64,000 nucleotides of DNA, taken from NCBI GenBank assembly GCA_903813345.2, contig CAIIXF020000003.1:5291815-5355814 (forward strand), in the 5' to 3' direction. The notes under the pieces were generated by a model. It made no database searches, was not told the origin of the DNA, and was given only the letters and a program-made list of their open reading frames with translations. Origin of the DNA: Owenia fusiformis. Taxonomy: Eukaryota > Annelida > Polychaeta > Sabellida > Oweniidae. Shown piece by piece: positions 35,101 through 62,700 of the stretch (position 1 is its first letter; each line of letters begins with the position of its first letter). The translations under genes and the position numbers were made by a program.

Positions 35101-38100
35101 TTATTTCTAAAATGCTCAGTGACAAAATTCATTACTGGTATGATTGTCAGGTATACAGCATCACATGAGGATAAAACTGTACTAAAAAGTAAAATCTTGT
35201 TTTTATCTAAGAGTTTGTTATGATGTTATTGAAAATGTAGCTTCAAATCATATAAGTCAAGGCACAAATTAAAATGCACAAAAACTCTCTATAAACAAAT
35301 AGTCCACCAAAATTGAGAAATCTCCATTGACCTCTAAAGGTAGGGGACATGCCCTGCCTAAGGTAATATAAAATTCTCAACAACCATTGTTTCTAGAATT
35401 ATATTAAAAACTGTGGATAGATTGATGATAGAAGATGGTGATGATAGAGTGGGCGTGGTAGAAAATATGTATTATCATACAAGGCCCGAGACATGACCTT
35501 TATATTAGGTGGTTAAATGATCAAGCAAACTCACCTCTATAACAAACAACTCCTATGGGTGGTTAAATGAACAAGCAAACTCACCTCTATAACAAACAAC
35601 TCCTATGGGTGGTTAAATGAACAATCAAACTCACCTCTATAACAAACAACTCCTATGGGTGGTTAAATGATCAAGCAAACCCACCTCTATAACAAACAAC
35701 TCCTATAGGTGGTTAAATGAACAAGCAAACTCACCTCTATAACAAACAACTCCTATGGGTGGTAAATGATCAAGCAAACTCACCTCTATAACAAACAACT
35801 CCTATGGGTGGTTAAATGAACAAGCAAACTCACCTCTATAACAAACAACTCCTATATGTGGTTAAATGAACAAGCAAACTCACCTCTATACTAACAACTC
35901 CTATGGGTGGTTAAATGAACAAGCAAACTCACCTCTATAACAAACAACTCCTATGGGTGGTTAAATGAACAAGCAAACTCACCTCTATAACAAACAACTC
36001 CTATAGGTGGTTAAATGAACAACCAAACTCACCTCTATAACAAACAACTCCTATAGGTGGTTAAATGAACAAGCAAACTCACCTCTATAACAAACAACTC
36101 CTATGGGTGGTGGTGATAGGAAAAGAACACGTTTCTGAAGAAGGACAAATTTCCATAAAATGAAAATATTCTCCCCAAAAAACTTGATAAATTGTGAGAA
36201 GCAACCTGCAGGATGTGTAATCTGAAATACACAAGAAGAGGATGTGTAATCTGAAATACACAAGAATAGGATGTGCAATCTGAAATACACAGCAATAGGA
36301 AATTACACACAAGCTATGGACCAGGTCAATATTTTGAAGCATTCATTTCCTTTTAAACAGCTGATCTTGTTCCTCGCTACATAGTAAAAGCAATGATATT
36401 GGATGTTAAACACTCACAAAACCTTTTAAAACCCAACACCTCTAATTATATTTGAAGATGGTAGTCACCTTGAGTTCAGGTAGTATGTCACTGGAGGTTG
36501 TAGTGCTAGAGGTACTCATTAGTGAACTGGTCAGTGAGTTGGTGAATGGAAGACGTCCTATCGTGGCTTTTTTGTCTTCATAAAAAGCTTCAAGCTGTGA
36601 ATATGTACCTGGGGTCTCAAGCTGGTGCCTGAAGCAAAAAATGCATTAAATCCAAATAACATTTCCTACAATGTGAAGTGCTATGACAGAATCAATAAGA
36701 TGCATGTACCTGACTTGGGAATTGAGAAACCAGAACAACGGCAACGCAAAAGCGTAGCAAATCCCATCGAACAGCCATGACTGGCATTTTTACAAAGTAT
36801 ACAGCAAAAATGGCAGCCATTTTTTCAAAATGGCCACCTTCTACCAAAAGTATTATTAGACAGTGTGCCATGCTTATAGTATTCACATACCAAATATGAA
36901 CAAAATCACTCCCCTACTTTTCGAGTTATAGTAAAATATGTTTAAATGGCAGCCATTTTTCAAAATGGCCACCTTCTACCAAAATTGTCATTAGACAGTG
37001 TGACATGCTTATAATATTCACATACCAAATATGAACAAAATCGCTCTACTACTTTTCGAGTTATAGCAAAATACGTTAAAATGGCAGCCATTTTGAAAAA
37101 TGGCCGCCTTCTACCAAAAGTGTCATTAGACAGTGTGCCATGCTTATAGTATTCCCATACCAAATATGAACAAAATCGCTCCACTACTTTTCGAGTTACA
37201 GCAAAAATCGTAAAATAACGAGTAAAGGCCGCCATTTTTCAAGATGGCTGCCATGTGCTTTTTTAATATCTACATTTCTAGCTTTATTAATGTCCTACAT
37301 AATTTTTTTACATTTACAACATATTGCTATTACAGTTTTACATATTGCACCTAAATTACTGTAAAATCGGCACTAAAATGGCCGCCATTTTTAAATGAGT
37401 CCTACATAATTTTTTTACATTTACAACATATTGCTATTACAGTTTTACATATTGCACCTAAATTACTGTAAAATCGGCACTAAAATGGCTGCCACTTTTA
37501 AATGAGCAGCCGTTTTGAAAATCGGCTTTCGAGCAGAACTTCTACCCCCATAGGGTATATGTGTACAAAATATGAACAAAATCGGGCCAACGGTATTTGA
37601 GTTATTGCCCGGACGTATGGACGTCTTTTGTTGCTGCATTAGTTTCTTCATTCATTGTCTTCTTTCTTTGTCTTGATTTGATTGTGATGTTATCTTTCTT
37701 CAGGATCCACAGACTTGAGACTGCGCGTAGGTGGGTTAAACGTTTTGATCCAGACGGACGGAGGCGTTCCCTATATCCCTTCGAACTTCGTTCGATGGGA
37801 TAATGATGTGTCAACAAAAGTGTATATATTAAGTTGCTATAAAACAACAAATCAGATTAAGTCCTTGCCTGCATTGGGGCAATATATAAAGGTTGCAACG
37901 AAGCAACCAATCACTCACCTGACTTGGGACTCTAGAAACTGCATGTGTCTGTAGAGAAGTGTATATGATGTTGCTAGGATCCCAACAGACTTCATTCTGG
38001 CTCCTCTCTCAATCTCACTCTCCACTCGCATGTTTTCAAAGCAGGCCAAGCCAAATAAAGAATCTTTTCTAAAATATCTGAAACAAAGTGCAAAAATGAT

Positions 38101-41100
38101 TGAAGTATACGTCGCAACATCTGAAGATGGCTTTTAATGAGAACATTGAGTAGCCAAGATTCGTCTTTCAACAGGTCATTAAATCTATTGTGTGATATTT
38201 TCCTGTGGAATATCTCAAAACTTTGCACTTGGGTCATCCTTTGAAATGGAACATGAACCCACACAGAAAGATAAGCAGACAGACAGACAGCTTCTCTATA
38301 CTCCTTTCAAAATTCTTCAGTGGGATAATCATAATCACTGTAAGCATAATTGAGGTTCACTCTAAAATTAATAATATATTTACTTACACAAAATCACTCA
38401 TTTGGGTATGAGATCCACTTGACATAGCTTTGAACTCTACACCTTCCAGATTGGCATCTTCCGGGAGACACCATTCTACCACATTCCCTGCAATAATAGA
38501 ATATAAACCATGTGTTAGCCATTCTACCACATTACCTACAATAATAGAATATAAACCATGTGTTAGCCATTCTACCACATTACCTACAATAATAGAATAT
38601 AAACCATGTGTTAGCCATTCTACCACATTACCTACAATAATAGAATATAAACCATGTGTTAGCCATTCTACCACATTCCCTGCAATTATAGAATATAAAC
38701 TATGTATCGAACATTCTACCACATTCCCTGCAATTATAGAATATAAACCATGTGTTAGCCATTCTACCACATTCCCTACAATAATAGAATATAAACTATG
38801 TATCAAACATTCTACCACATTCCCTGCAATTATAGAATATAAACTATGTATCGAACATTCTACCACATTCCCTACAATAATAGAATATAGACTATGTATC
38901 AAACATTCTACCACATTCCCTGCAATTATAGAATATAAACCATGTGTTAGCCATTCTACAACATTCCCTACAATAATAGAATATAAACTATGTATCAAAA
39001 ATTCTACCACATTCCCTGCAATTATAGAATATAAACCATGTGTTGACCATTCTACCACATTACCTACAATAATAAAATATAATCTATGTATCGAACATTC
39101 TACCACATTCCCTACAATAATAGAACATAAACTATGTATCAAACATTCTACCACATTCCCTGCAATTATAGAATATAAACCATGTGTTAGCCATTCTACC
39201 ACATTCCCTACAATAATAGAATATAAACTATGTATCAAACATTCTACCACATTACCTACAATAATAGAATATAAACCATGTGTTAGCCATTCTACCACAT
39301 TACCTACAATAATAGAATATAAACCATGTGTTAGCCATTCTACCACATTCCCTGCAATTATAGAATATAAACTATGTATCGAACATTCTACCACATTCCC
39401 TGCAATTATAGAATATAAACCATGTGTTAGCCATTCTACCACATTCCCTACAATAATAGAATATAAACTATGTATCAAACATTCTACCACATTCCCTGCA
39501 ATTATAGAATATAAACTATGTATCGAACATTCTACCACATTCCCTACAATAATAGAATATAAACTATGAATCAAACATTCTACCACATTTCCTGCAATTA
39601 TAGAATATAAACCATGTGTTAGCCATTCTACAACATTCCCTACAATAATAGAATATAAACTATGTATCAAACATTCTACCACATTCCCTGCAATTATAGA
39701 ATATAAACTATGTATCGAACATTCTACCACATTCCCTGCAATTATAGAATATAAACCATGTGTTAGCCATTCTACCACATTCCCTACAATAATAGAATAT
39801 AAACTATGTATCAAACATTTTACCACATTCCCTGCAATTATAGAATATAAACTATGTATCGAACATTCTACCACATTCCCTACAATAATAGAATATAAAC
39901 TATGTATCAAACATTCTACCACATTCTCTGCAATTATAGAATATAAACCATGTGTTAGCCATTCTACAACATTCCCTACAATAATAGAATATAAACTATG
40001 TATCAAACATTCTACCACATTCCCTGCAATTATAGAATATAAACCATGTGTTGACCATTCTACCACATTACCTACAATAATAAAATATAATCTATGTATC
40101 GAACATTCTACCACATTCCCTACAATAATAGAATATAAACTATGTATCAAACATTCTACCACATTCCCTGCAATTATAGAATATAAACCATGTGTTAGCC
40201 ATTCTACCACATTCCCTACAATAATAGAATATAAACTATGTATCAAACATTCTACCACATTCCCTGCAATTATAGAATATAAACCATGTGTTAGCCATTC
40301 TACCACATTCCCTACAATAATAGAATATAAACTATGTATCAAACATTCTACCACATTCCCTGCAATTATAGAATATAAACCATGTGTTAGCCATTCTACC
40401 ACATTCCCTACAATAATAGAATATAAACTATGTATCAAACATTCTACCACATTCCCTGAAATTATAGAATATAAACTATGTATCGAACATTCTACCACAT
40501 TCCCTACAATAATAGAATATAAACTATGTATCAAACATTCTACCACATTCCCTGCAATTATAAAATATAAACCATGTGTTAGCCATTCTACCACATTCCC
40601 TACAATAATAGAATATAAACTATGTATCAAACATTCTACCACATTCCCTGCAATTATAGAATATAAACCATGTGTTAGCCATTCTACAACATTCCCTACA
40701 ATAATAGAATATAAACTATGTATCAAACATTCTACCACATTCCCTGCAATTATAGAATATAAACCATGTGTTAGCCATTCTACAACATTCCCTACAATAA
40801 TAGAATATAAACTATGTATCAAACATTCTAACACATTCCCTGCAATTATAGAATATAAACCATGTGTTAGCCATTCTACCACATTCCCTACAATAATAGA
40901 ATATAAACTATGTATCAAACATTCTACCACATTCCCTGCAATTATAGAATATAAACCATGTGTTAGCCATTCTACCACATTCCCTACAATAATAGAATAT
41001 AAACTATGTATCAAACATTCTACCACATTCCCTGAAATTATAGAATATAAACTATGTATCGAACATTCTACCACATTCCCTACAATAATAGAATATAAAC

Positions 41101-44100
41101 TATGTATCAAACATTCTACCACATTCCCTGCAATTATAAAATATAAACCATGTGTTAGCCATTCTACCACATTCCCTACAATAATAGAATATAAACTATG
41201 TATCAAACATTCTACCACATTCCCTGCAATTATAGAATATAAACCATGTGTTAGCCATTCTACAACATTCCCTACAATAATAGAATATAAACTATGTATC
41301 AAACATTCTACCACATTCCCTGCAATTATAGAATATAAACCATGTGTTAGCCATTCTACAACATTCCCTACAATAATAGAATATAAACTATGTATCAAAC
41401 ATTCTACCACATTCTCTGCAATTATAGAATATAAACCATGTGTTAGCCATTCTACCACATTCCCTACAATAATAGAATATAAACTATGTATCAAACATTC
41501 TACCACATTCCCTGCAATTATAGAATATAAACCATGTGTTAGCCATTCTACCACATTCCCTACAATAATAGAATATAAACTATGTATCAAACATTGTACC
41601 ACATTCCCTGCAATTATAGAATATAAACCATGTGTTATCCATTCTACCACATTCCCTACAATAATAGAATATAAACTATGTATCAAACATTCTACCACAT
41701 TCCCTGCAATTATAGAATATAAACTATGTATCGAACATTCTACCACATTCCCTACAATAATAGAATATAAACTATGTATCAAACATTCTACCACATTCCC
41801 TGCAATTATAGAATATAAACCATGTGTTAGCCATTCTACCACATTCCCTACAATAATAGAATATAAACTATGTATCAAACATTCTACCACATTCCCTGCA
41901 ATTATAGAATATAAACTATGTGTTAGCCATTCTACCACATTCTCTGCAATTATAGAATATAAACCATGTATTGGTCATTCTATCACATTCCCTGCAATTA
42001 TAGAATATAAACCATGTATTGGTCATTCTATCACATTCCCTGCAATTATAGAATGTGTCGGCCAATCTACAATATTCCATGCAATTATAGAATATAAACC
42101 ATACATTAACCATTCCATCTAATCACATTCCCTGCAATTATAGAATATATTTACCATGTGTTGGTCATTCTACCACATTCCCTGCAATTATAGAAGATAT
42201 TTACCATGTGTTGGTCATTCTACAACATTCCCTGCAATTATAGAAGATATTTACCATGTGTTGGCCATTCTACCACATTCTCTGCAATTATAGAAGATAT
42301 TTACCATGTGTTGGCCATTCTACAACATTCCCTGCAATTATAGAATATATTTACCATGTGTTGGTCATTCTACCACATTCCCTGCAATTATAGAAGATAT
42401 TTACCATGTGTTGGCCATTCTACCACATTCTCTGCAATTATAGAAGATATTTACCATGTGTTGGCCATTCTACAACATTCTCTGCAATTATAGAATATAT
42501 TTACCATGTGTTGGCCATTCTACAACATTCCCTGCAATTATAGAATATATTTACCATGTGTTGGCCATTCTACAACATTCCCTGCAATTATAGATTATAT
42601 TTACCATGTGTTGGCCACTCTACAACATTCCCCAGGGTTCTCACTAAACTTTTAGACTCCGGAGATTCTCCAGAGTCTAATGTCTTAAAACCCTCTTGCT
42701 CCAGAGTCTAATAGCTTTTCCGGAGTCTAAAGTGTTTTTTCTGGAGTCTAATTTTACATTTTTGTTACATTATTTATGGTAGAACTCTTGAGAAAATACA
42801 TAAAACTGGATACAAACAAGGAATAGGAAGTCAGAAACCTTTTAGAAATAAATATTGGGATTAAAATAGCAAGATAATCTTGTTGAAAAGTATACTAATA
42901 GGATATCTCTGATCTCACATGGGGGAGAAGTTGTCGGGATACCGCGAAAAAAGTAGTCACAATACCGCTAAAAATCTGGGGTCTAAAAATTTCCTGGTGA
43001 GAACCCTGTTCCCTGCAGTTGACTGAAAAGACTGATGAAATGCAAGAAATGATATTCATAGCAATGATATACAGGCACTAAAGTTAATTTACTTGCTTCA
43101 ATATTAAAAGCTAGTTTAATGAATTTTGTTTAAACATGTAATATTACTGTCCCTGAGATTTCATAAACAAGAATGGATCAATACAGTTAATGTAGAAGAT
43201 CATGCAGGTTTCTTGTTAAATCATATGTATTTACTATTAACAACATTCATATTAGAATTTACCATTTATGATGGTGAACGTTATCTATAATTATTGGTTC
43301 TTAATGCTGAGAAACAATATTCAATCAGAAGTTGAAGACATAAATGCATCCCCCTCCGTTCTGACTGGCATAAATTCCTGAAATACTCAGATTAGTCTTT
43401 CAAATATCAATTAACAGAAATTTATATAACAAACATATAGACAAATTCATTCAATAAAATTCCAGATATTTTCATTGGTTATGGGGGGGGGGGGGGTGCG
43501 ATCGCACCATCGTAAGATTGATTTGTCATGTTTTTCAAATCGTCTTACAATGTCATAGGCGTAGCCAGAAGAGGGTTCAATGGTGCTATCGCACCCCCCC
43601 CCCATAACCAATGAAAATATGACCAGGATGATAGAGGAAGAAAAGAGCCTTAAAATGCTTTTTATTTGAAGCTTCTAGCTCAATTTTGAAGGAAGTTACA
43701 CGTTTTCTGATGATCTAATTACTGTATGTTATATATTCATATTTTGTTTTTTTTTGGGTACCCGGATTTTTCGACCAGGTACTGGGTACCAAGTTTGAAC
43801 CCAGCATGGAGGATTTACTACCCAGTACCCAGTTTTTCTACAAACCCTGTATATTGAAATGTTAAGGTTCAGCGGAAAGTAACATTTTGCTAAAAAATTG
43901 CTATACCTGCACATGTTATTTTCTGGTACAAAATTAAGTATGAGGGCATGTGTGTATTTCCTTGCTTTTTTCAGGAAAGGATCATTACACTGTCTACTTT
44001 TAGTAAACCTTGAAACAGGTCAATGGTAGCTCATGTGTTCTCATGTGATCTCCACAAAATTCTTGCTAACCACCAACATGGATTCAGAGCTAAACACTCT

Positions 44101-47100
44101 TGTGAAACCCAACTTGTAAACACCATAGAACAGATTTCACGAGCTCTTGATAACAACAAACAAACAGACTTATTAGTACTGGACTTCTCTAAAGCATTTG
44201 ATACAGTCGCACACGAGCGCCTGCTCCTTAAGCTTAATCACTATGGAATTCACGGAAACAACTTGAGCTGGCTCAGATCTTGGCTCGTTGGAAGGTCCCA
44301 ACAGGTAGTACTGGATGGAGAATCTAGTACAAGAACACCAGTGAAATCGACCACTCTGCTCCCTTGTCTATATCAATGATATGGGCAGCGACTTATCAAC
44401 AACAACCAGCCTCAAACTATTTGCAGATGACAGCCTCCTCTTCATGTCTGTCGAGAACCAAAAGGATGCACTGACACTCAAGGATGACCTTGACAAGCTG
44501 GTCTCCTGGGCAAATACATGGCAAATGAAATTCCATCCCTCAAAATGCTATGTACTGAGTATTCACGGACGTAAATCACCCATCACACACAAGTACACTA
44601 TGTTATAGACTATTAGGAGAAGAATTAAAATCTGTGACCAACATTCCATATCTAGGGATCGAAATCACAAACAACCTAAACTGGACGACACACATACAAA
44701 CAGTAGTATCAAAATCTAACAAGGTACTAGGCTTCCTCCGGCGCAACCTCCACCAGTACCCAGAGAACATTAAAGCCCAGGCGTACAAGTCACTAGTACG
44801 GCCTAACCTAGAATATGCTAGTGCAGCATGGGATCCTTACCGCCAGAAAGATATCAACATACTGGAACAGGTACAAAGGAGAGCAGCCAGATTTGTTACC
44901 AAATGTCACTCTAGGGAACCAGGCTGTGTCACCCAAGCTCTCCAACACCTGCAGTGGGAATCACTACAATCCCGTAGGGAGGCTACTAGACTTTCCCTCT
45001 TCTACAAAGGAACTCACAACTTAGCAGCCATCACTATACCCACTTACTTCAGCCCTCAAATAAACACAAACACTAGACAGTTCCATCCATCCAAATTCAT
45101 CCAACCAGATGCCAGAATGGATGCATACAAGTTTAGTTACTTTCCAAGGACAATGGTAAAATGGAACACTCTACCCAGTGATATTTTAGACAGTGATAGC
45201 CTATCCAGTTTAAAATCTTCTGTAAGCAAGGAGCTTAACAATTACCCAAATGCGAGTAGGTAGTTACCAGTTTCACCACCAGGTGGCTGATTCGGGTCAA
45301 TTAACATGGCAGGTATATAAGAAAGTTCCCCTAAACTTGAATATTATCAATTTAAGTGGCTCAATTTTCATATAACCCTTATGCGTCTGATACTTATACT
45401 AATGAAAATATGTCCAGTAAAGCAAAATATTATCTGTCCACTAAAAGAAAAGATATTTCATTTTTTGTGATTTTATAGTATGGGGTCTATGGGGAATCTC
45501 CCCGAGCTAGAAGTCACATTTTCAAAGAAAATTAATTTTTCAAAGTTGATAAACACTTTTTAAAACCACATTTCTAGATGTAATTTTACATGTAGATTTC
45601 AAATATGATATTACTTTGACTAAATTTTGAATTTTTAATGACGTAAATCAAGATTATTTCTACTCGCATCTGGGTTATTAAGGTTAAGGTTTTCAATATT
45701 TTGACAATCGGTTAAGGTTCAAATTGTATTCTATTCAAATTATATCACTGTTAAACTATATATCTGCTTTAATGGGCTTATTAGCCTTTTGCGGATTATT
45801 GATGTGGATGTGTTGTCTGGAAACTTTGAAAGAAAATTTGGGAAAATAGAAAGTGTGAAATATCAGAATTTCGTGGAGTTCCTATTGAACTCCTACTATA
45901 TATTCTTAAAGAAGACAATGTAATGATACTTTCCTGAAAAAAGCAAGGCAATATCCCAGATGCGAGAAGAAATAATCTTGATTTACGTCATTAAAAATCC
46001 ACAATTCAGTCAAACTGATGTCATATTTGGAATCTACATGTAAAATTACATCTAGAAATGTGGTTTTGAAAATAGTTTATCAACTTTTAAAATTTAATTT
46101 TCTTTGAAAGTGTGACTTTTAGGTCGGGGAGATTCCCCATAGACACCATGTTGTAAAACCACAAAAAGTGAAATATCTTTTCTTGTGATGGGCAGTTCAT
46201 ATTTTCTTTTGCGGGATATATTTTAATTTGTATAACTATCAGATACATAAGGGTAATATGAAAAGTTAACCACTAAAACTGATGCATATTCAAGTTTAAG
46301 GGAATTTTGTAATACCCTGCCATGTTAATTCCCCCGAATCAGCCACCTGGTGGCGAAACTGGTAACTACCTACTCGCATCTGAGTAATTGACACATGTCT
46401 TCATACTTTATTTTGTACCAGAAAATAACATGTGCTGGTATAGCAATTTTTACCGTGACCAAAATGTTACTTTCCAGCTGTACCTTAATTGCTATTTTTA
46501 TTCTGTCAATTAACATACTATGTATGCATTATGACATTGGTTGCTTGATTTATTGTCTGAGTGATTGACATGATATCGATGATTGTTTCTTTTGCTGGTT
46601 AGTTTATTTTAAGAATTTTTCCATCTAAAATGTCATTCGACTTTTTGGCAATTAAAAGTCCCTGCCTGCATTTAGTAATCATATTGTCATGTGCATAATT
46701 TTGAAACCATATCCTAATTATTTCACAAACCCTTTGTTGATTCTGCCATAGTTTCCAATTTGTAAACAGCATTTAGCCTTTTTAATTGGGAACTTTTTTG
46801 AAATTTCCAAAATGGCTGCCATGTGATTCCAGAATTAACATGAGTGTGACGTGACATCACAGTTGCTTGTTCCTAGGTAACAACAAGATCACAATTGCTT
46901 GTTTCTAGATAGCAACAAGATTTTTGATAAAATGGCACAGAATTACCCTGATTAACACCCTTAAAATCCGATTTTCAAAGAATATATTTGGAGAAACAAT
47001 AAAAGGTAAGTGGAATAAATTAGAAGATGGTTTGAAGTTACCAGTGTTACCACAGAAGTCAATTTGAAACTCAAGAATGCTTTCTTTGACTCATAATCAC

Positions 47101-47882
47101 AAAAAAGTCGAGTGACATTTTAGATGGAGAATTTCTTAGTTGGTTGCTTGGTTGGTACTTGGTAGGTTGTTTAGTTGATTGTTTGGATGATAAGTTGAGT
47201 TAGAGGTCAGTTTGGGTGATTGGTTGCTTGGATTGGTCATTGGCGTGTTTTAGGGCATAAAATGAAAAAATCAAATTCTAACCCTGGTAGGAATGTTAGG
47301 TGTCCTGTCATTCAGTTACCCGATCACCCATTTACACAAACCCCAAGTAATTCGATAGACTCAAGTAGAGCTAAGCCCCGACGAAGTTCACCAAACAAAA
47401 AAAACAAATTCCCAGCTAAATCGGTGAAGGATAATTGAAGATTGTCCGACAATGCCCCGTGTCCAAGAATACCCATTTAACAGATGGTACATTTGAGACA
47501 GATGTTATATACTGATTAGCTTGGGAAAGAAAATTGTAAGGTGAGCTTACAGTATACAGATATACGAACATTATCAACAGAGATTTGTTAAAACCAAATT
47601 ATAAACAAACACTGGATTGTAAACAAAGCTAATCTCACCTGCTTTAGTATCGAAAGCCACAACAAACACTGCAACAACATGGTCAGGCTCAACCAAATTT
47701 TGAAGAGAACTACTGGCGCTTATATTAATGAATTTATTGCCTTCTGTTGGACTAGAGATAGCTAAATGTTTATCCTTCTGGTACAAGTGTCTAATCCTCA
47801 GCCTTGGCTCCTCTAAATTGTCTACATCATGAGATATTCCCTCTGAATTGTCCAAAAGTGGCCTTTTCTCATCCTCCGCCAT
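32117..47882 (-). CDS. DENND11: DENN domain-containing protein 11 (LCHN), complete, nine exons
   Basis: Exons on the minus strand: 47882-47639, 38487-38388, 38077-37919, 36628-36469, 36221-36083, 35021-34896, 34514-34364, 32754-32686, 32315-32117. All are GT-AG, phases agree at every junction, and the product is 448 residues (human LCHN 455). Family landmarks in order: [167 protein letters not shown], and [10 protein letters not shown] before the stop. DENN proteins are mostly Rab exchange factors; I do not know the target here. The start at 47882 (AAAAATGGCGG) is preferred over an in-frame ATG seven codons upstream. Intron 1 is 9.2 kb and holds the splice-acceptor array, several transposons and a LINE fragment. 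Confidence 0.95.
32885..33260. repeat. CTCGTA/TACGAG-rich degenerate block in DENND11 intron 8
   Basis: CTCGTA, its complement or one-base variants recur many times within about 375 bp (for example TACGAGCTCGTACAAG, CAGGCTCGTACCAAGCTC, AACGAGCCTCGGACAGGC). CpG is far denser than in the surrounding AT-rich intron. There is no periodic unit, no coding and no clear TIR; it may be a very degenerate transposon. Confidence 0.5.
33261..34363. other. DENND11 intron 7, AT-rich
   Basis: Remainder of the intron between exons 32686-32754 and 34364-34514. It includes an AAGATGGCTGCCATTTT motif near 33731 as found in the HINE-like repeats. No other feature seen. Confidence 0.4.
35508..36107 (-). repeat. 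50-bp array of 12 copies carrying the DENND11 exon-5 splice donor
   Basis: Minus-strand unit: CCTATAGGAGTTGTTTGTTA then TAGAG|GTGAGTTTGCTTGT then the ATTTAACCACC tail. The exonic part (IGVVCYRG codons) and the donor TATAGAG|GTGAGT of exon 5 (36221-36083) form the first unit, and eleven more follow in the intron at 50-bp spacing (one at 49). Nearly all retain GTGAGT; one reads GTGGGT. Fifty is not a multiple of three, so use of a later donor would shift the frame. Confidence 0.95.
36211..36297 (-). repeat. 29-bp triplication spanning the DENND11 exon-5 splice acceptor
   Basis: Three units (36211-36239, 36240-36268, 36269-36297) each read, on the minus strand, TGTGTATTTCAG|ATT(A/G)CACATCC. Each therefore holds an acceptor plus the first codons (ITHP) of exon 5. 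Only the unit next to the exon continues into PAGCFSQF. Use of an outer acceptor would add 29 or 58 nt and shift the frame. Confidence 0.9.
36825..37805 (+). mobile_element. Tandem-core element with ACYG tract and perfect terminal hairpin (HINE/CvA-like)
   Basis: Three units of about 134 bp start AAAATGGCC(A/G)CCTTCTACC and include GACAGTGTGCCATGCTTATA and CTACTTTTCGAGTTA. Then come two units of about 107 bp (CCTACATAATTTTTTTACAT onward). After a unique segment lies CCAGACGGACGGAGGCG and the hairpin TATCCC-TT-CGAAC-TTC-GTTCG-AT-GGGATA (about 37774-37802). It sits in DENND11 intron 3. Helentron-associated identity is inference. Confidence 0.55.
38265..38335 (+). mobile_element. Degenerate 3' end of the same ACYG/hairpin element family
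   Basis: GATAAGCAGACAGACAGACA then a decayed hairpin ending GTGGGATAATCAT, in DENND11 intron 2. Only the terminal part is recognisable. Confidence 0.4.
38471..42632 (-). repeat. 48/50-bp array of about 85 copies carrying the DENND11 exon-2 splice acceptor
   Basis: Minus-strand unit: ATAGTTTATATTCTATAATT then GCAG|GGAATGTGGTAGAA then a variable 10-14 bp. The acceptor and first codons (NVVEW) of exon 2 are the last unit. From 38471 to about 42070 the unit is 48 bp, alternating two main types (TTATTGTAG| and TAATTGCAG|), so every unit keeps an AG acceptor in the same phase. From about 42110 to 42632 the unit is 50 bp. The 48-bp part is open on the minus strand from 41938 through exon 2, more than 1,100 codons, with period [16 protein letters not shown] / [17 protein letters not shown] 376-bp transposon splits off the last partial unit (43009-43020). 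Confidence 0.96.
42633..43008. mobile_element. CAGGGTTCTCAC-ended MITE with 5-bp TSD inside the array
   Basis: Begins CAGGGTTCTCACTAAA and ends TTTCCTGGTGAGAACCCTG (TIR CAGGGTTCTCACYA). It is flanked by TTCCC at 42628-42632 and 43009-43013. The empty site is simply the array unit (ACATTCCCTGCA), so the insertion postdates the array. The interior has repeated CCGGAGTCTAA/CCAGAGTCTAA motifs. Confidence 0.85.
43466..43620. repeat. Inverted repeat with G/C homopolymer arms
   Basis: ATATTTTCATTGGTTATGGG...GGTGCGATCGCACCA on the left is mirrored by TGGTGCTATCGCACC...CCCATAACCAATGAAAATAT on the right. The middle includes GGCGTAGCCAGAAGAGGG, resembling the ends of the GTAGCCAGGA repeats. Probably a small foldback element. 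Confidence 0.65.
43621..43850 (+). repeat. Second copy of the 9519-9776 dispersed repeat
   Basis: Matches from GACCA(G/T)GATGATAGAGGAAG to TTTTTCTACAAACCCTG, with a 30-bp-scale deletion relative to the first copy. Confidence 0.75.
44023..45262 (+). pseudogene. LINE reverse transcriptase fragment (CR1/jockey-like), broken
   Basis: Three frames carry pieces of one non-LTR retrotransposon reverse transcriptase. 44023-44347 encodes [18 protein letters not shown] and the motif [20 protein letters not shown]. 44350-44596 encodes [10 protein letters not shown] and the catalytic-type box [11 protein letters not shown]. 44604-45262 encodes [29 protein letters not shown] and a C-terminal [16 protein letters not shown] segment. 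The expected GVPQG...GPLLF motif between the first two pieces is deleted with a frameshift, and there is a further one-base shift near 44600, so it is inactive. The 5' half and the endonuclease are absent. The last codons (NASR-stop) come from the MITE inserted at 45248. It lies antisense in DENND11 intron 1. Confidence 0.88.
45248..45671 (-). mobile_element. MITE of the AGATGCGAGTA family, copy 2 (inverted)
   Basis: Starts (A)AATGCGAGTAGGTAGTTACC and ends CTACTCGCATCT, about 424 bp, in reverse orientation to the copies at 7380 and 45958. Inserted in the 3' end of the LINE fragment. Confidence 0.85.
45958..46381 (+). mobile_element. MITE of the AGATGCGAGTA family, copy 3
   Basis: Starts AGATGCGAGAAGAAATAATC and ends GGTAACTACCTACTCGCATCT, 424 bp. 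It interrupts the right arm of the TTAA element, where the uninterrupted left arm reads TTTCCTTGC next to CATGTGTG. With copy 2 it makes a large inverted pair separated by 286 bp. Confidence 0.85.
46490..47638. other. 5' part of DENND11 intron 1
   Basis: Mostly unremarkable AT-rich intron with an AAAATGGCTGCCATGTGATT motif near 46809. A plus-strand frame at 47262-47438 ([20 protein letters not shown], then a proline- and lysine-rich tail) looks protein-like and could be a LINE ORF1 scrap, but this is weak. Confidence 0.35.
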
Positions 47883-48128
47883 TTTTGTTTTCGTCCTACA
47901 CATCACGTGATGAGATCATCAACTTTGACCCCTAATTATTATTATTTGCTGTTTTTGAAGGTAGTTGGTTTTAAATTATAATTGTATTTCGATAAGTATG
48001 CTTTCCAGAATTATATAGTTTACTCAATAAATCTATTATAACGGGTCAGTGAAATATCATTATGATTCATAATTTATAATTAATACACAGAATGATAAGT
48101 CCCCAATTGACATCCGGGCATTTTCAAG
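47883..48128. promoter_or_regulatory. Bidirectional promoter region between DENND11 and the TMEM186-like gene
   Basis: The two start codons are divergent and 246 bp apart. The palindrome ATCACGTGAT (core CACGTG, 47904-47909) lies about 22 bp upstream of the DENND11 ATG. AAAATGGCGG at that start codon resembles a YY1 site. No TATA box was seen, as usual for head-to-head housekeeping pairs. Function is inferred from arrangement only. Confidence 0.5.
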
Positions 48129-52502: not shown

Positions 52503-52982
52503 GAAATGAGCAGTTTCAAAATTGAGGTTTTATCGAACTAAGAATTGACTTAAATACCTTAATGACCTTTTATTGTTTCTCAAAACATATTCTCCCGAAA
52601 TCAGGAAATAAGGGGGATGAGCAGGGAAATTCTGTAGGGAAATTCAGTCACAAAAAATAATGATTGACAACTAACACTGCCCCCAAGTTTAATGACTATC
52701 CAAAATGACCTTGACATTAAGCAAAATATACTTCGCTCACTAAAGGAAGTCAAAAATTATTCAACACATCTTGTTTAATTGGTCTTCAAGAGCAATTTCA
52801 TGTTCACAAATTAAAATAAAGTCTCATTCTTTTAAAAAATGTATTTTCATGTTTTTTGCATACTTTACAAAGTTACAATTTCAAAGGGCAATATTTAAAA
52901 TTTTACAACATCTCAATATTCCAATTCTACTCCTACATTTGGCTTTGAAAGTTGTGTTGTAATTTGAATACAACTATTTTAC

Positions 52983-52988
52983 AATAAA
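52983..52988 (+). promoter_or_regulatory. Candidate polyadenylation signal AATAAA, TMEM186-like gene
   Basis: A canonical AATAAA 480 bp after the stop codon, on the sense strand, facing the CPSF1 3' end. Confidence 0.4.
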
Positions 52989-53068
52989 TTGATTGATGTA
53001 ACAAATATGGAAAATTATTAATTACTCTTAAATGTGACAAATACCATGAACAATCTTAACGGTCTGGT

Positions 53069-53350
53069 CTGCAGCGTAACCAGGATAAGCCAGACGAGGC
53101 CTCATCGCTTTTTTTTTAAACTTCCTTTGAGGACTATTCCTTTATCAATGAAATTATAAATTAATTGCACAACTTTTATTGATTTTTAAATCTGAATGAT
53201 GGAAATGTTTCTCACAAAAAGATGATTTTTCCATGATTGAACCTAGCCTAGCCAAGGTGAGGCAGACGAGGCGCTTCCCTCGTCGCTTTTTAACAGATTT
53301 TAAAATATTTTTCAACTCGTCGCTTTTGTGTTCCTGACTACACCACTGAC
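53069..53350. mobile_element. Decayed GTA(A/G)CCAGGA-type element between convergent genes
   Basis: The left end CAGCGTAACCAGGATAAGCC and right end TTCCTGACTACACCACTG are weak inverted repeats of the CAGTGGCGTAGCCAGGA kind. The motif GCCAGACGAGGC(C/G) and TCGTCGCTTTTTA recurs inside. The CPSF1 3' UTR may run through it. Confidence 0.45.
53175..53180 (-). promoter_or_regulatory. Candidate polyadenylation signal AATAAA, CPSF1
   Basis: On the minus strand AATAAA lies about 610 bp after the CPSF1 stop codon. With the plus-strand signal at 52983 it would leave roughly 190 bp between the convergent genes. No closer canonical signal was seen. Confidence 0.3.
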
Positions 53351-53787
53351 AGTATGATATATAAATGAGATATGTGTTACTGCAGAGCTCCACAAACAAT
53401 TAGTCCAAGGGCTCTATGTGATGCCTTGATATAAATACCAGTATTCTGTCAGCCAAACAGGAATGGCAACTAAGTCAAAATGACATTATAGGCAATTCAA
53501 TAACACCTTGATTCCCAATTCCTGGTCATATACAAATGGGAAGTGTCCACTTGTGTTCACTGTATTATATTTCCTATTGTAGTTGCATTTCTTGAGCTTC
53601 ACCAGCAATATGTGATCTGAGTCTCCATTTCCATGGCAATGTATCCTCTACACTTAAAGTTATACAGAGTCTCACTATTTCCTAAAATCATATTCAAGAA
53701 GTATAGGCCTGTAGTCTGGAAGTTAGTAGTCACATTGCAAAGGCCCACCTGAAGATTCTCTCATAAAAGGTGTATGTTTGGAGCTCT

Positions 53788-56700
53788 CTAAAAGTGGGCT
53801 GTTATTCTGTCTATTTCTGTGAGATCATCCAATAACTGAAAGAAAATTAATTATTCTAGTATAGGTATAATAAATATGTCACACACATTACTTATTTTGG
53901 TCTCTTACTTTTCCAGTTGATTTCTTTTATCAATTTGAATCTGAACAATTTCTCACAAACAGAAAGTGAACTCCACATCTAATGGCTAACCTGTCTCTTA
54001 ATATGTCTATTTTGACTATTGATTTTTTTAAATATTTAATAACCACCTTACTTTCTTAAAAAGATACTCAAATGTAAAAGATAGTCTGGGGCAATAACAG
54101 GAGTAAACATCCACAGGGAATATTACCTGATCAGTGGTAGTTCCAAGTTTTTTATTGATCTCATTTCTCTCATTAACACTGAGATTGAGGAAGTTCCAGA
54201 CCAGTTCACCATCTAATATACATTTCTGAGGGTTGCTCAATGTTTTATGACTTTGTTTATAGCTTCTGAAACAATAAATCAAACATTATTAGTTTGTAAA
54301 GTATTTTTACCAACATGCTATTGTCTCCTATTATTTTGAATTGCCTAAATATGCAAAGGATTGGTATCGATATGGCGAACTAAATTGAACATTGTTTTTC
54401 TCTCAAACCATTTATTGAAAACATTCTGTGAAAAAACGATCCTTTGTGTAATTGGTCACTGATTGACAACAATTTAATGTGAAAATTATTTATATATATT
54501 TTATTTATTGTATTATTATTATCTCAAAATTATAGTTATACAAAGGAAAGTTTGGTTCAATTAGCAAAAAGTATTCAAAAAATTAAACAAAGTTTAACCC
54601 AAAAATAGATAAAAATTAAAGTAAACCTTTTATTTCATTAACAAGATGAACCAAACTTTCCTTTATACAATTACAACATTGAGAGACCTAAACACGTTGT
54701 GTATATGTCATTTTGTTCCGATGAGGTTCGGATAGAGTTTCATTTCATTCTGAACATATAATATCGAGAACAAAATAAGTGTCCAATGTGTTTTCTAAAA
54801 CAATATAAAGTTGTTTTTTTTACATTAAAGTGTTACCATACAAAAGATACTGTAGATTGGGTTAATTTGGCGCTACTTAATTTGGCGATTTTGCCATTTT
54901 TGGTATATTGGCGGCTATTTAATTTGGCGGATATGCAAAAAAAGTTCAAATTATGCGCTGTTTGCGAATTACCATGTAAATGGGCATGTTAATGGCTAAG
55001 TCCATTTTTTCTTTTGAGGACCACTGCCGATATTCACCACGTTTGTACATTTTTGTGAGATCATTCTTTACATTTTGCACCTCGATCGATGCTGCTACTA
55101 TAGCACGCTTTTCCTTTCTAGTTTTTCCCTGAGTATAAATGAGTGACTGACCAGTTCTGAGCAAATTTATGAGAAACATTTTTTCATATTTTTGGAAAAA
55201 AATTAAACCAGAAGTGACCTAAATACACTGGACGAAATACCCTGGATAATTCTCGGGGATCTGAATTTTGGCGAAGATTTATATTGGCGAATTTTTCAAT
55301 TTCGCCAAATTAAAGCGGGCGGCAAATTAACCCAATCTACAGTACTCATTAAATTGACGATGTGTAAAATTTTCAGAATTTTTTGATGACTGGTTTAAGA
55401 GAAACATGTGTTCAATTCAGTAAGCCATATCGATACCAATGCTTTATTCCTTCAGGGGTATGCAATGAGTTTCCCTGAATGTTCCAGTTTTTAAAATCTT
55501 CCATCATAATGAAGCAGTCGCTTAATTCATTTCAAAGTCAAGATGATAATTTTCTCTTTTTGAAAACTTCTCAAGATGCAAGATGCAACAAACCTGAATG
55601 CTTTTGGATTGAGGCCTGCTATATGCTGAAGGTTGATGTTAAGAGAATTCTGCAACATAAGTAATCTCCTATATACAGCTTCTTTAATTGGTAGCACATA
55701 TCCTATACTGCCATCCAGGGATGCTACAAGCACATGAAAATCTTGGTAAGAAAATACATCATGAGATGCCAAATTTGGAAATTGATACCATTAGATATTG
55801 GAGAGAGAGAGAGTAATATACTTGCTTTCCAATGGTAAAAACAATGTCTTGATGATCCCACTCTATTTTACTTTAGGATCTCAAAACACGACTATTATTG
55901 CAATATTTGCCTCAAAGCTTCATTTGATATGGACTTACCAATAAATGTTACATGTTTCTTCTCAACTACACCACTGGCTCGTTTAGATGTGGATGGATCC
56001 GTTATCTTGCAGCGTAGTCTAAACATTGTATTCATATTGCTTCCTATATTAATATCTGCCTTGCGTACCAACCTTTGACCTCCATGACTCTCACGTGCTG
56101 GAAAATAATAACACAATCTACTTGACTGTACAGTTATACAATTATACTATACATTGTTTAATGTTTTTGACACACATATTCTGGAGCTAGTGACACATCA
56201 TTCGATGACACACATCATTTGGCATTCATCAACAAAGGTTTCACATAATTATAATCAGTGCTTTATATGTCACACATTTTGCATGATTCATACAATTTGT
56301 AACACATATACATAATCCGTATCACATGTGAGTTTACTCACCTTCTGGACTGTAGGTGAAGATCATGAGATTCTTTAGCTTGTCTGCAACTGAAAATATA
56401 TTATTTCTTATTAAATTTAAAATTTGGATTTTAATTATGTAAAGTGTTTTTTTGAAATATGTACTGATAGGTGTACTAAATCCTATCTAAAATTGAAGCA
56501 CAACTTTGATATCATAGCACTGGTCTGTTCCTCGTGATACTGCATGTATATAAATCATAGTCATGTTTTAAATGGGAAATGGTTAAAATGAGTAAAAGGA
56601 ATGTTTTCTTACCTACGAATCCTAGCTGGGTGTTGTCAACTAGAAACTCAATTCCAAACACTTCCATTGGTTTAATATCCTGGAATAATATTTAGGAAAT

Positions 56701-59700
56701 ATATCAAGGAAATGAAACGAACATGTTGAATAAGATGACATTAGGACACTAACTTGTTATGCTATTTCCCATATTGTACTACTGTAGTATGTAGTTCAAT
56801 GGGTGAACAATATTGCACCCCTGAGTCGATTATCTTACAAACAAAACTACACTATAAAGAATAGATTTCAGGACAGAAAATCAAACATGGCCAATTGAAA
56901 ACCAAGAATGCTCAAAATCTATGTAAAAGCCAAAATTATTAACAGTACTTTAATTAACCCAGCATGCTCAAAAATGAATCAATACTAGATTATCATATTA
57001 AGAAACAGGATTCAATCCTAATCCTATTAAGATTACCAGATTGACTGCCAAGTGGGAGCAAAGTCGATAGATAGTTGTAATGCTTACCCTGCTTACAATG
57101 GAGAGCACCTTCATGTCACTTTGGTACCTCAGCACACAGACACTCTTGATGATGTCTGCCACTAAAAGAATGTTGTGGATCACTTGGATGGAGTGGATAT
57201 AAACATTGGTGTCAATGAATGCAACAGCACTCAGATCGTCATCTTTCAATTGGAATATATAGATCTACAATCATGAAAGTAAACTACATTAAATAACAAT
57301 ATGTGAATATTCAATTATTTTCATTCATTTAGTTGTGCTTGAAAAAACTTAACTAGACATAGTTTTTTGTTCTGTTGCATTTCACTTAAAACCCACCATA
57401 AAATAAACCCTAAGCATTGTGCACATGGGATTTTCTAGAATTTGTGTCCCATTTTAAACACATCTCATCAAGTCTGAGACATGTGTATGGTAGCAGTTTT
57501 CATTTTTTCAAATGTTACCAATAGTGTAAATTGTCAAAAGATAATGTATGATGGTTCCAATATCTATAAAATTGCTCTTATATTTTCAATTAGCTATCAA
57601 GTAGTATGATACCATCATTTAGACATACTTTTTGGCCTATTGCTGCAACTAAGTCACCATCAACAGAGGCCACTGCAGTTACTGGTCCTTTCTGCTCCTT
57701 GTCATATATCATCTTCAACTTGTTCTTAGTAAGTGGCTTCCCAGGCTCTGGGACAACCTCTATGATGTCATAGAGAAACATCTGGAACATCAGGTTATCA
57801 GATTAATTCTTGTACAGAGCGCAGCAAGGAACTAACATAATGGGTTTAAAACATATATCCTCTAGAATAGTACCCCAGCAGAATGCAACAAGGAACCAAC
57901 ATAATGGGTTTAAAACAAATATCCTAGAGAAAAGTGCCCCAGCAGAATGCAGCGAGCCAACATAATGGGGTTTATTTAATACATATATCTTTTAGAATAG
58001 TGCCCCAGACGAATGCATCCAGTAACCTCAGTTATAACCAATTTACATCTGAAAACTATTTTGCCCCAGTTATCAAACATGCTTCCTATAGTCTAAACTT
58101 GATGGCAACTCATATTCTCCCTGACCACAACTCACCCTTCCTCTGGATGCCACTTCTTCACCATAGGAGTAATTAGTGCCAAATGCAAGGTAACCATGGA
58201 GACCTGATATAGTTCCCTGACTGGTCAGGTAAACAATACCAAGGCAGATTATAGTCTCCCACTCATCTGTTTCAATTCTGAAATTGAATAAAATATTTAA
58301 AAAATTGTTATCAAATATCAAACATTATTCCTGATCATTTATACATTCCTAATCTTTTAAGCTCCAATCATCTCACTATACCCAAAAGAAACCATTCAAA
58401 GATTTTGCTCCTGAATGCCTGAGGTCATTATATCTCCTCCTTGACTCCATATACATATTATTATGTCATATGAAGAATGTAATCCTATTTTTCACAGCTC
58501 TTATAATTATTGCAAAATGGAAGTACAGTAAAGTAGTTTGACTTTCTCATTTTGATGAACTTCTGCATGGATAATAAGACTTACTTTGTGTTTGGAATGA
58601 CTTCCCAGCTGACTGGTGAGAATAATTGCATGCTGTACTTTTCAAGAGTGGGGTAGATGTATCTGTCATCTGAAAAACGTACATGGCTCAACTTTTCAAA
58701 TCAGATATATTTAAGAGTGGATATTAATGTAACTACATGTACTTATTTTTCACATATTCAAATTTTAAACAGAAATGCATGCTTTAAATTGAAACACAGA
58801 ACAATTAAGAGCTGACCTCTTTCTATATGTTCATATTCCTTCTCGTCATCCCTGATGCGGCAGATCTTATTGCAGAGCTCACTGGTACTAGTTACCACTG
58901 CATAAATCTGAAATAAATATGCTCATCCTTATTAAAGCAAAAATAGAATGTAAACATAGATACTGATTAGGTTGAGTCAACATTCTAAATTGAAATGAAA
59001 GACACTTCAAGAAAATGCAAGGCATTAACATGCAAAATGTCACCACCACAACAATGAAACCCAACACATTCATGTATATTTTATAAAAAAAATCAAAACA
59101 CGTTTTATCATATTTCATCATGTTATACATTTTATTTTTGGCCAAACAATTCTCCATTAATTTATTGTGTGGATGTATGTTGATAAGACTGCTGGGACAA
59201 CTGCTGACCTTTCAAAACTATTAAAATACATATTGATTAAATGGTGGTGCATTGGGCCTATTAGACCTACCTTAGTCACCTGATGGTACTGTATATAATG
59301 TGGGGCACATTGGGCCTAGTAGACCTACCTTAGTCTCCTGATGGTACTGTATATAATGTGGGGTACATTGGGCATAGTAGACCTACCTTAGTCTCCTGAT
59401 GGTACTGTATATAATGTGGGGTACGTTGGGCATAGTAGACCTACCTTAGTCTCCTGATGGTACTGTATATAATGTGGGGTACATTGGGCCTAGTAGACCT
59501 ACCTTAGTCTCCTGATGGTACTGTATATAATGTGGGGCACATTGGGCCTATTAGACCTACCTTAGTCTCCTGATGGTACTGTATATAATGTGGGGTACAT
59601 TGGGCCTATTAGACCTACCTTAGTCTCCTGATGGTACTGTATATAATGTGGGGCACATTGGGCCTATTAGACCTACCTTAGTCTCCTGATGGTACTGTAT

Positions 59701-62700
59701 ATAATGTGGGGCACATTGGGCCTATTAGACCTACCTGAGTCTCCTGATGGTACTGTATATAATGTGGGGTACATTGGGCCTATTAGACCTACCTTAGTCT
59801 CCTGATGGTACTGTATATAATGTGGGGTACATTGGGCCCATTAGACCTACCTTAGTCTCCTGATGGTACTGTATATAATGTGGGGCACATTGGGCCTATT
59901 AGACCTACCTTAGTCTCCTGATGGTACTGTATATAATGTGGGGCACATTGGGCCTAGTAGACCTACCTTAGTCTCCTGATGGTACTGTATATAATGTGGG
60001 GTACATTGGGCCTAGTAGACCTACCTTAGTCTCCTGATGGTACTGTATATAATGTGGAGTACATTGGGCATAGTAGACCTACCTTAGTCTCCTGATGGTA
60101 CTGTATATAATGTGGGGTACATCTAAGTGGCACCTTTCTAACTGGCCATGGAGCATCATATGACAGATGAGTAGGGAGCACTGATATTCTTAGCTCATCC
60201 TGCAAAATACAGCAATTATTATAATAAAGATAATATTAAATTATGTAAAAGAATAACTAAAAAATGTACATAAATTCCATATTTAAACATGTATAGATAA
60301 TGCAGATAATTATTAATGCATCAATATAAATAGGCATGCCCTATTCATAATATCTTCAGAAAAAAGGATCACTCACCTGTCTGTTGAAATAGAGAAAACC
60401 TTTGGGACAGTTGACATTATGAAATGGTGCAAAGCATGTGATCCAGCCATCAATGCTCATAGGATGACACCGCAGGCTCCCTCTGGTGGTCATTATCAGC
60501 CAATAGGGACAGGGACCACTAACAAATACCTGGAATAAACAAAAAAAACACTTTTTCGGAAAAGAGGTCTTAGAGCATATCTTAAAATTGGAATGGAGCA
60601 AAACAAGAAAACAGCCATGAAGCAAACTGAATAAGAATAGGATGAGACTGATTTGGAGAAGTTGGAGGTATATACAGTTTTAAGTGGCTACAACTCTTAA
60701 GTATGTGTCAGCATGCACATCTCTTATATTATGTATGCTTTCTATGTACAAATACTTAATGGTACTGTATTGTCACATCTGCTTTATCTTAATGTTTAAA
60801 AGTGACGTACACCATTGTATCCCGAGACATCAGTAAATTGTGTCAAGTATTTTCCTTGTTCCTTTTCTTCCTCATCATCTTCTCCTTTCTTCTTTGTCAT
60901 CCCTTGCTTCCTCTCTCGTATTAGTAGCCCATGGGACACTCTGTGGTAGCGCAGCTTAAGGTGAGATGTGTCAAGTTCAGGGGCACCATTATATGGGAAT
61001 GCTTCATAGATGTAAAGTTCATCACCAACAATAGCCTAAAATAAAATCATAATTCAAAAATTGAAATGAATTCAGAAGATTATGGTCAGCCATGACTGTT
61101 TTCTTAAATATGGTCTAATGCTAACCATTGGATAGGGCCTGGTCTTATTATTGGATAGTGCCAGTTCTTACTAGTTCTTGATTACCATTAAATTGGACCT
61201 AATTCCTATAAGATAAGGAAAGTAGCTACTATAATATAACAATTCACTATAATAATTCCTAAGGCTTACCATTATATAGGGCCTAGTTTGTTTGTAACCC
61301 ATGCCTACAATCATCAGCTCCTTGACAACTGGCAAGTCGGAATGTGACTTCTCCATGCTATAAAACAAAGAAATAAGTTGTTATAGTGATATATATATCT
61401 CAAATTTTTATTTCAGGTTCATATTTCTTGTATTTTTATACATGAGCAATCTATGTATAAAGTGTTTACATTATTTTTCTCTCGATTTTTCTAAAAGAGT
61501 AAAGTGAATATTCAAAATTGAAGAAACACACTCTAAAAATATATATCAAAAATGCCAATGCATAGAAATTGATGATATTTCTGAATGATTCTCACCCTGT
61601 CCTTGATTGGCCAAGATCTGTCGTATTATCTGTAAGAACCTTATTTCCCACTGGAAAATCTCGTACACAGTAACTCAGTTTAAATTCTGGCATGGAATAG
61701 ATCTAAAAATAAGGACCAGTATTAATCTCCAAAGTATTGATATGAAACATTAAAACAAGTGACACCATCTGTAACAGAGTTAGAACCTATAATAAATTTT
61801 CATATTCTAAATTCATCAATAATTATAATGTAAAGTCATATTTTATTAAATGAAAATTTACATTCTTCTAGTTAGTAAACTACATGTTAACATAATAGAA
61901 AAAAAAATATTTATGATTTCCACAAAACAAAGCATGATCTTTTTGCTTTAGGGGGACAAGAAATGATGTATAACTAAGACAATTTTTGAATAGGTATTAT
62001 ATATTTTTGAAGAGGTTAGATTTACTTATATGCTTACCTCAAGCTTGCCATTTTCTTTACCTACAATAGCCCAGAAAGTTGGCTCAACTTTCTTCGTTGC
62101 TGATTCACTTGAGGGCCTAGAACAGAATCAGAAAAGATGAAGGTTTAATATTTATTGTCTCCAATTAAGGAAAGCACTATATTGGATTGCATGTTCATAG
62201 AAAATATAGAAAAAATTCATAGAAAATTGAGTAAAAGTTTCAAGTTTAACTCGAATTTTGACTAGGTTCAAAGTGAAGTGTAATATATAGCCTAGGCTAT
62301 AGAAATATTTTGATATGGATCTATAAAATGATTTTCTGCAAATTACATTTCTTTCTCTTCCTCTGTCTTTGTAGTGTCTCCAAATATATCTCCAGTGCTA
62401 TCACCATAAAGAAGTTCATCTTCGTCATCCACTGTGCTGAAACATCAAAGGATATCCATAACACAAAAGTCATGACAAATCAATCAGTCAAGACAAAAGT
62501 CATGGCAAGACAAAAGTCATGACAAATCTAGTCATGACAATCAAAAGTTAAGATAAGTAAAAAGTCATGGCAAGTCAAAAGTCATGACAAGTCAAAAGTC
62601 ATGGCAAGTCAAAAGTCATGCCAAGTCAAAAGTCATGAAAAGTTATGGGAAGTCAAATGTCATGATTTCATGGCAGACAGTTTAACTAGTAAACTTGTAA

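Follow-up and report, generated by a model that had tools for sequence, protein, structure and literature searches.

Tandem arrays that span exon-intron junctions recur in the annelid Owenia fusiformis and correspond to amphioxus 'mirages'

Minisatellite-like tandem copies of exon-intron boundaries have been described in amphioxus under the name of 'mirages'. According to the accounts in PMC3087553 and PMC3902484, the repeat units of 10-160 bp cover both 5' and 3' boundaries, the examples being Adh3 and the globins BflGb6 and BflGb9, with troponin C and PGBD5 added by report. The splice signals are present in many of the copies, regular splicing is reported to be undisturbed, and mirages have been proposed to feed intron gain (PMC3087553, PMC3902484). 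As presented in these sources, the amphioxus cases so far are reports on single genes. For amphioxus huntingtin, the portions of PMC2206037 at hand mention tandem repeats and name no junction array. A related route to new introns is the tandem duplication of AGGT sites, in which the duplication itself copies the splice signals, as outlined in PMC4974935. In human, paralogs derived from primate-specific segmental duplications are described as carrying minisatellites, some of them at an exon-intron boundary, which may make new introns; coding sequence harbours half of the variable repeats, and transcripts retain some of them (PMC2812944). For the annelids, PMC12783039 reports minisatellites within the first intron of an earthworm metallothionein gene, and, in one clone, duplicated copies of exon 4 that do not appear in the transcript. 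These exon 4 duplications may be an annelid precedent; whether the junction is repeated is not stated in the sections of PMC12783039 at hand. Within the literature on mirages and junction minisatellites, as represented by titles, the beginnings of abstracts and a few passages, no annelid case of a junction array was found.

The window analysed here is a 64,000-nucleotide stretch of the Owenia fusiformis genome in which four tandem arrays straddle exon-intron junctions. These arrays are best read as mirages, a structure already known from amphioxus; their occurrence in an annelid, together with an estimate of their frequency, would be new as far as the literature considered here goes. The earlier note, which was made from the window alone, had thought that a mechanism favoring junctions would be new; the phenomenon itself had been described before in the amphioxus reports (PMC3087553, PMC3902484). 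As in amphioxus, the repeat unit spans the exon-intron boundary, in all four of the window arrays and in 20 of the 102 arrays of an exon sample from the same genome; donors as well as acceptors are affected (two and two in the window, 9 and 11 in the sample); and the copies are local and derived from the gene, as seen for the 50-, 48/96- and 58-bp arrays among the matches listed. Unlike the amphioxus mirages, the Owenia arrays are found in an annelid host, reach up to 87 copies, come with a frequency over a gene sample, and are known from genome sequence alone. They also differ from intron gain through AGGT sites, in that the window units copy one type of authentic site and it is the existing intron that grows. 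With the human segmental-duplication repeats, in the parts of that work at hand, they share the position of a minisatellite at the exon-intron boundary.

The four arrays belong to two genes on the minus strand (Table 1). DENND11 was identified by two segments that match Pfam PF09804 with E values of 6.7e-14 and 1.4e-38; its first exon is at 47639-47882, and the last was located near 32.2 kb by visual inspection. The 3' part of CPSF1 was modelled with 20 exons from 64000, the window end, to 53788. The resulting 790-residue model aligns end to end with human CPSF1 (E 6.5e-262), the protein used for the alignment having one wrong residue at the exon 3/4 joint.

Table 1. Junction arrays and associated exons in the window (positions within the window)
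Feature	Positions	Strand	Basis
50-bp tandem array, 12 copies (x12.1), each with the DENND11 exon 5 end and donor	35508..36111	-	Tandem Repeats Finder and gene model
DENND11 exon 5, array at both ends	36083..36221	-	Gene model, Pfam PF09804 match
29-bp tandem array, 3 copies (x3.1), each with the DENND11 exon 5 acceptor	36210..36300	-	Tandem Repeats Finder and gene model
DENND11 exon 2	38388..38487	-	Gene model, Pfam PF09804 match
48/96-bp tandem array, 87 copies traced, with the DENND11 exon 2 acceptor	38471..42632	-	Tandem Repeats Finder and copy tracing
58-bp tandem array, 15 copies (x15.1), each with the CPSF1 exon 9 end and donor	59246..60122	-	Tandem Repeats Finder and gene model
CPSF1 exon 9	60083..60199	-	Gene model, alignment to human CPSF1
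Decayed copy of the CPSF1 exon 6 donor junction	61115..61143	-	24/29 bases; authentic donor 61270/61269

In all four cases, the authentic splice site is contained within the array and not just near it. Based on the gene models, the exon 5 donor of DENND11 (36083/36082) has 29 bp of exon within its array, the exon 5 acceptor (36221/36222) 12 bp, the exon 2 acceptor (38487/38488) 17 bp, and the exon 9 donor of CPSF1 (60083/60082) 40 bp. Judged from the sequence, the copy contiguous with the exon appears to be the functional junction in each array. The splice dinucleotide is nearly always retained in the extra copies: GT is intact in 11 of 11 in the 50-bp array and in 14 of 14 in the 58-bp array, and AG in 2 of 2 in the 29-bp array and in 84 of 86 at DENND11 exon 2. 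In the last of these arrays, the 96-bp period returned by Tandem Repeats Finder (x43.2) consists of paired 48-bp units, and the far end, at 42053-42632, has a period of 50 bp. No similarity among the four array units was found beyond that of shuffled sequences. The observation that two acceptors and two donors are straddled by arrays of unrelated units of 29, 48/50, 50 and 58 bp, as read from the letters in the earlier note, is therefore borne out by the gene models, Tandem Repeats Finder and the shuffles. A search of the genome with the 50-, 48/96- and 58-bp arrays returned, among the matches listed, their own locus only, with one candidate place scored for each.

The earlier note had also held that four boundary cases would hardly arise by chance. 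Of the 13 arrays in DENND11 and CPSF1, 4 straddle a junction compared to about 1.1 expected (P 0.016; the arrays of the other window genes are uncounted), which speaks for that claim, but the arrays had been picked before the test, and an independent sample is thus the better one. As a stand-in for a genome-wide count, the assembly (498 Mb, 525 contigs) was searched for exon matches of four Pfam families, myosin head, kinesin, DHC_N2 and AAA_6. In this assembly, 38 forkhead matches fall on nine of the twelve large contigs (C1, C3, C4, C5, C6, C8, C9, C10 and C11) and none on C2, C7 or C12. Provided that the contigs are sorted alphabetically by chromosome name (C2-C4 being 10-12 and C5-C12 being 2-9), these nine are chromosomes 1, 2, 3, 5, 6, 7, 8, 11 and 12, as given for the Fox genes of O. 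fusiformis in PMC9539403. That paper also places a tight foxC-foxL1 pair on chromosome 11 and tandem foxQ2 genes on 5 and 7; close pairs or groups of matches are seen accordingly on C3, C8 and C10, and from their spacing these are presumably foxC, foxL1 and foxQ2. An amphioxus origin of the DNA, considered in view of the mirages, was dropped in favor of O. fusiformis or a very close relative. From the 404 listed match rows 357 were kept, some of which contain stops; 12 myosin rows from one cluster of like exons and 18 kinesin rows from a single array (L001, see below) were left out by eye, and 17 further kinesin rows were left out for gaps, stops or weak scores. The 357 exon matches, with 400 bp of flank, form 165 exon-centred regions of 278,157 bp with 714 exon edges, those in the last 33 regions being raw, unrefined match ends in the array counts and shuffles. 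Tandem repeats were called at a period of at least 12 and a score of at least 50, with overlapping rows merged. Straddling, taken as at least 6 bp of exon, was judged by hand; one array was struck out for a misplaced junction (L105) and one was added by hand (L018).

The 20 straddling arrays of this sample are located in myosin, dynein and kinesin genes, and one of them is weak (L057, score 55). Another 4 arrays were counted as touching a junction only (L076, L075, L092 and L047), 2 are exonic and 76 intronic. At a score of at least 100, 19 of 57 arrays straddle. About 2.8% of the 714 sampled exon edges carry a junction-straddling array. When junction-spanning 40-mers were compared with up to 600 bp of the adjoining intron, 24 of 615 junctions had a copy there (score at least 16), a list that includes the misplaced L105, where junction windows taken from other loci give 0.17 expected. 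Junction-spanning tandem arrays are recurrent in O. fusiformis, and the suggestion that the window arrays belong to a shared phenomenon has been upheld by both counts. The kinesin array L001, which was met through the kinesin search itself and stands outside the sample counts, has 18 copies of a 159-bp unit comprising an acceptor and 127 bp of exon. At two other loci, L104 and L056, strong intron copies were seen in the 40-mer test that are absent from the tandem-repeat list.

The best reading of these arrays is probably ordinary local tandem duplication, tolerated since the exon-contiguous site works, as for mirages. We infer that a short stretch which happened to span an exon-intron junction would have been duplicated in tandem and in place, with the array growing by unequal exchange or slippage. 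One complete junction would stay joined to the remainder of the exon, leaving the first donor or the last acceptor intact. The spliceosome could use this exon-contiguous site and the extra copies would be removed with the intron; on sequence grounds, the outer site is presumably the one used in the mRNA. Junction-spanning duplications may be tolerated because the exon-contiguous site still works and the extra copies are spliced out; they would then be no less tolerable than purely intronic duplications, whereas those within exons would be purged. An array freed in this way could grow, and its copies would drift almost neutrally. In support of this reading, the units hold the authentic site, three arrays match their own locus only among the matches listed, and CPSF1 aligns with human CPSF1 without an insert at the array junction, the alignment being gap-free across the exon 9/10 junction. 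The whole-array shuffles, the spread of exon shares, the periods and the within-array variants described below are in its favor as well. Counting against it are the excess over exon-sparing placement, the silent surplus over all copies, the lean of the kinesin array L001 towards silent variants and the retention of splice dinucleotides in the extra copies. That the copies are tolerated by being masked through splicing was one of the options raised in the earlier note, and it is the best supported of them.

Whether the arrays prefer junctions depends on the null chosen. By point coverage in the first 132 regions, 14 of 552 junctions (2.5%, one of the 14 being the struck-out L105) lie inside an array with a score of at least 100, compared to 4.4-7.3% of intron points (24/547 at 40 bp and 28/382 at 360 bp). 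Point coverage was rejected as the main null, since arrays cannot extend far into exons without destroying them. Shuffles of whole arrays over all sequence gave 22.0 straddling arrays expected vs the 19 of 57 observed; the excess over shuffled positions anticipated in the earlier note did not appear in the sample. When the shuffles were made to spare exons, 9.1 were expected and 0 of 400 shuffles reached 19. A single-unit version of the exon-sparing null gave 9.4 expected with the best period (P 0.00065) and 7.1 with the shortest period (P 7.5e-6), these P values being approximate in view of the hand-made straddle calls and of the unrefined exon ends of the last 33 regions. The exon-sparing null is in our view the appropriate one, as an array running through an exon would be lost. 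Against it, the observed number is 2 to 2.7 times what tolerance alone would give, and a modest two-fold residual beyond tolerance is present in the sample. The excess is carried by arrays of high score and long unit. At a score of at least 200, 17 of 36 arrays straddle, and those scoring below 100 show no excess (1/45 vs 1.1 expected). Among arrays with fewer than 3 copies and a period of at least 25, 7 of 16 straddle vs 3.1 expected (P 0.015). Any of three causes may underlie the two-fold excess: arrays anchored on a functional copy may survive longer, duplications may be born more often in or near exons, or a process may be aimed at junctions.

A mutational process of the last kind, involving R-loops, stalled polymerase or spliceosome-linked breaks, would cause duplications to be born at junctions more often, and both the exon-sparing counts and the surplus among arrays of few copies are in its favor. 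However, we consider it improbable, given that the plain shuffles show no excess, that junctions lie inside arrays less often than intron points do, and that the arrays scoring below 100 are without excess. The ends of the units also fail to cluster at the junction. Exon sequence makes up between 0.14 and 0.90 of the unit, with a mean of 0.56 (n=23, with the shares capped at the period minus 12 for L006, L016, L039 and L147; KS vs uniform P 0.06). With the share so widely spread, the ends of the duplications show no concentration at the splice site, which speaks against breaks at the junction itself as mentioned in the earlier note. The mechanism favoring junctions proposed there keeps the two-fold excess over the exon-sparing null and loses any excess over plain shuffles.

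Equally improbable in our judgment is that a functional edge copy, kept by selection, acts as a master copy that re-seeds the array and thereby gives it longer survival or expansion. The kinesin array L001 fits such a role, with 8 silent and 2 amino-acid changing variants where about a quarter silent would be expected. Within the array, after subtraction of the three differences that set the functional copy apart, there are 5 silent and 2 changing. These three variants separate the functional copy from 16-17 of the 17 others in L001, the array in which the mirage trait of a uniform interior with a divergent edge was looked for. The concentration of straddling in the large arrays points the same way, but the low-scoring arrays have short units and would rarely straddle anyway. 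When the exon-derived parts are pooled over arrays (L114 and L057 being absent from the copy-by-copy analysis), the within-array variants comprise 26 silent and 59 amino-acid changing ones, a silent excess that is not significant (20.2 silent expected, P 0.09). Counting all copies, including the functional copy's own differences, there are 36 silent and 66 changing variants (36/102; 24.2 silent expected), with part of this silent surplus stemming from the functional copy's own changes. As a set, the array copies drift nearly neutrally, much like intron sequence. The master copy as a general rule is unsupported by the pooled silent and changing variants.

It is quite unlikely that the extra splice sites are functional, serving as alternative or decoy sites by which splicing is tuned or peptide units are added. 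Such a role would be compatible with the reading frame of DENND11 exon 2, in which no stop occurs between 41977 and the exon, a distance of about 3.5 kb made up of 48-bp units; each inner acceptor would thus add 16 residues in frame (48/3). Of 204 extra copies over the arrays analysed, 192 retain the splice dinucleotide, but much of the unit is preserved at least as well: in the nine arrays with at least 7 copies, 40-100% of the unit dinucleotides are kept as well as or better than the splice dinucleotides. Periods divisible by three number 9 of 24, as by chance, and the copies therefore do not look selected as coding insertions. In the arrays with units of 58, 50 and 29 bp, lengths that three does not divide, splicing at a neighbouring inner site would change the reading frame. 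Insertion at junctions of introner-like mobile or satellite DNA carrying splice sites can be set aside as extremely unlikely, since the units contain the exon's own coding sequence and, in place of the dispersed copies at many loci that mark introner-like elements, three arrays match their own locus only, among the matches listed.

Local tandem duplication under tolerance, with its residual two-fold excess, may bear on how introns grow. With mirages at about 3% of the sampled exon ends in an annelid, the phenomenon seems to extend beyond a single lineage. They are frequent enough to be studied by counting, and this opens a way of testing whether introns lengthen, and new ones arise, through tandem duplication of junctions. 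It is possible, though on the whole doubtful, that in some animal genomes, those of amphioxus and of Owenia (whether independently or by shared ancestry), junctions are duplicated and amplified at a high rate beyond tolerance, by which several percent of exon ends would carry arrays of spare splice sites as a standing source of longer and new introns. The arrays are also a hazard for annotation, one exon, DENND11 exon 2, having 86 additional, nearly perfect copies of its acceptor region in front of it.

The 52 junctions of DENND11 and CPSF1 were also screened for copies in the adjoining intron. Apart from the four arrays, this screen found the decayed copy of the CPSF1 exon 6 donor junction, with a local score of 18.0 vs a best of 10.8 in 60 shuffles. 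In the same screen, a borderline match was seen at CPSF1 exon 13, scoring 12.2 vs 11.6 in shuffles.

The 159-bp unit of the kinesin-gene array (region L001) includes the acceptor together with 127 bp of exon, and silent variants predominate among its copies (8 of 10; 5 of 7 when counted within the array). In DENND11, the exon 2 frame runs without a stop across the ~3.5 kb of 48-bp units, so that inner acceptors, if used, would add 16 in-frame residues per unit.

In two exon-centred regions of the sample, L104 and L056, the adjoining intron holds strong copies of the junction window, with scores of 40 and 25.6, respectively, in the junction-window test. The repeat list contains no straddling tandem array for either region.

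It was also observed that the same segment of the myosin head (approximately positions 18-84) is matched 12 times on the minus strand of G000:C9:37986009-37994334, a stretch of the genome outside the window, at spacings of 0.3-1.9 kb. These matches look like a cluster of alternative exons.

Features within the window and the kinesin-gene array
Feature	Position	Strand	Remarks
54-bp tandem array	11204-14606		63 copies
162-bp array	28344-28978		
135- and 107-bp tandem repeats	36807-37506		inside DENND11 intron
Open frame through 48-bp units	38487-41977	-	DENND11 exon 2
Transposon-like open frame, with breaks	44014-45260	+	DENND11 intron; named by look only
Transposon-like open frame	63236-63811	-	CPSF1 intron; named by look only
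Kinesin-gene tandem array	G000:C2:23266345-23269188 (L001 446-3289)	-	159-bp unit, 18 copies

A Pfam search of the piece 44559-45257, within the transposon-like frame of the DENND11 intron, gave no match. The 54-bp array is read as lying in intron 1 of what looks like a gamma-glutamylcyclotransferase-like gene, judged by a YFAYGSN frame near 16788 and an AIG2_2 match near 10 kb; the array does not reach the exons of this gene as placed by eye. The 135- and 107-bp repeats contain words resembling AAAATGGCNGCCATTTT, and similar words are found in the 162-bp array.
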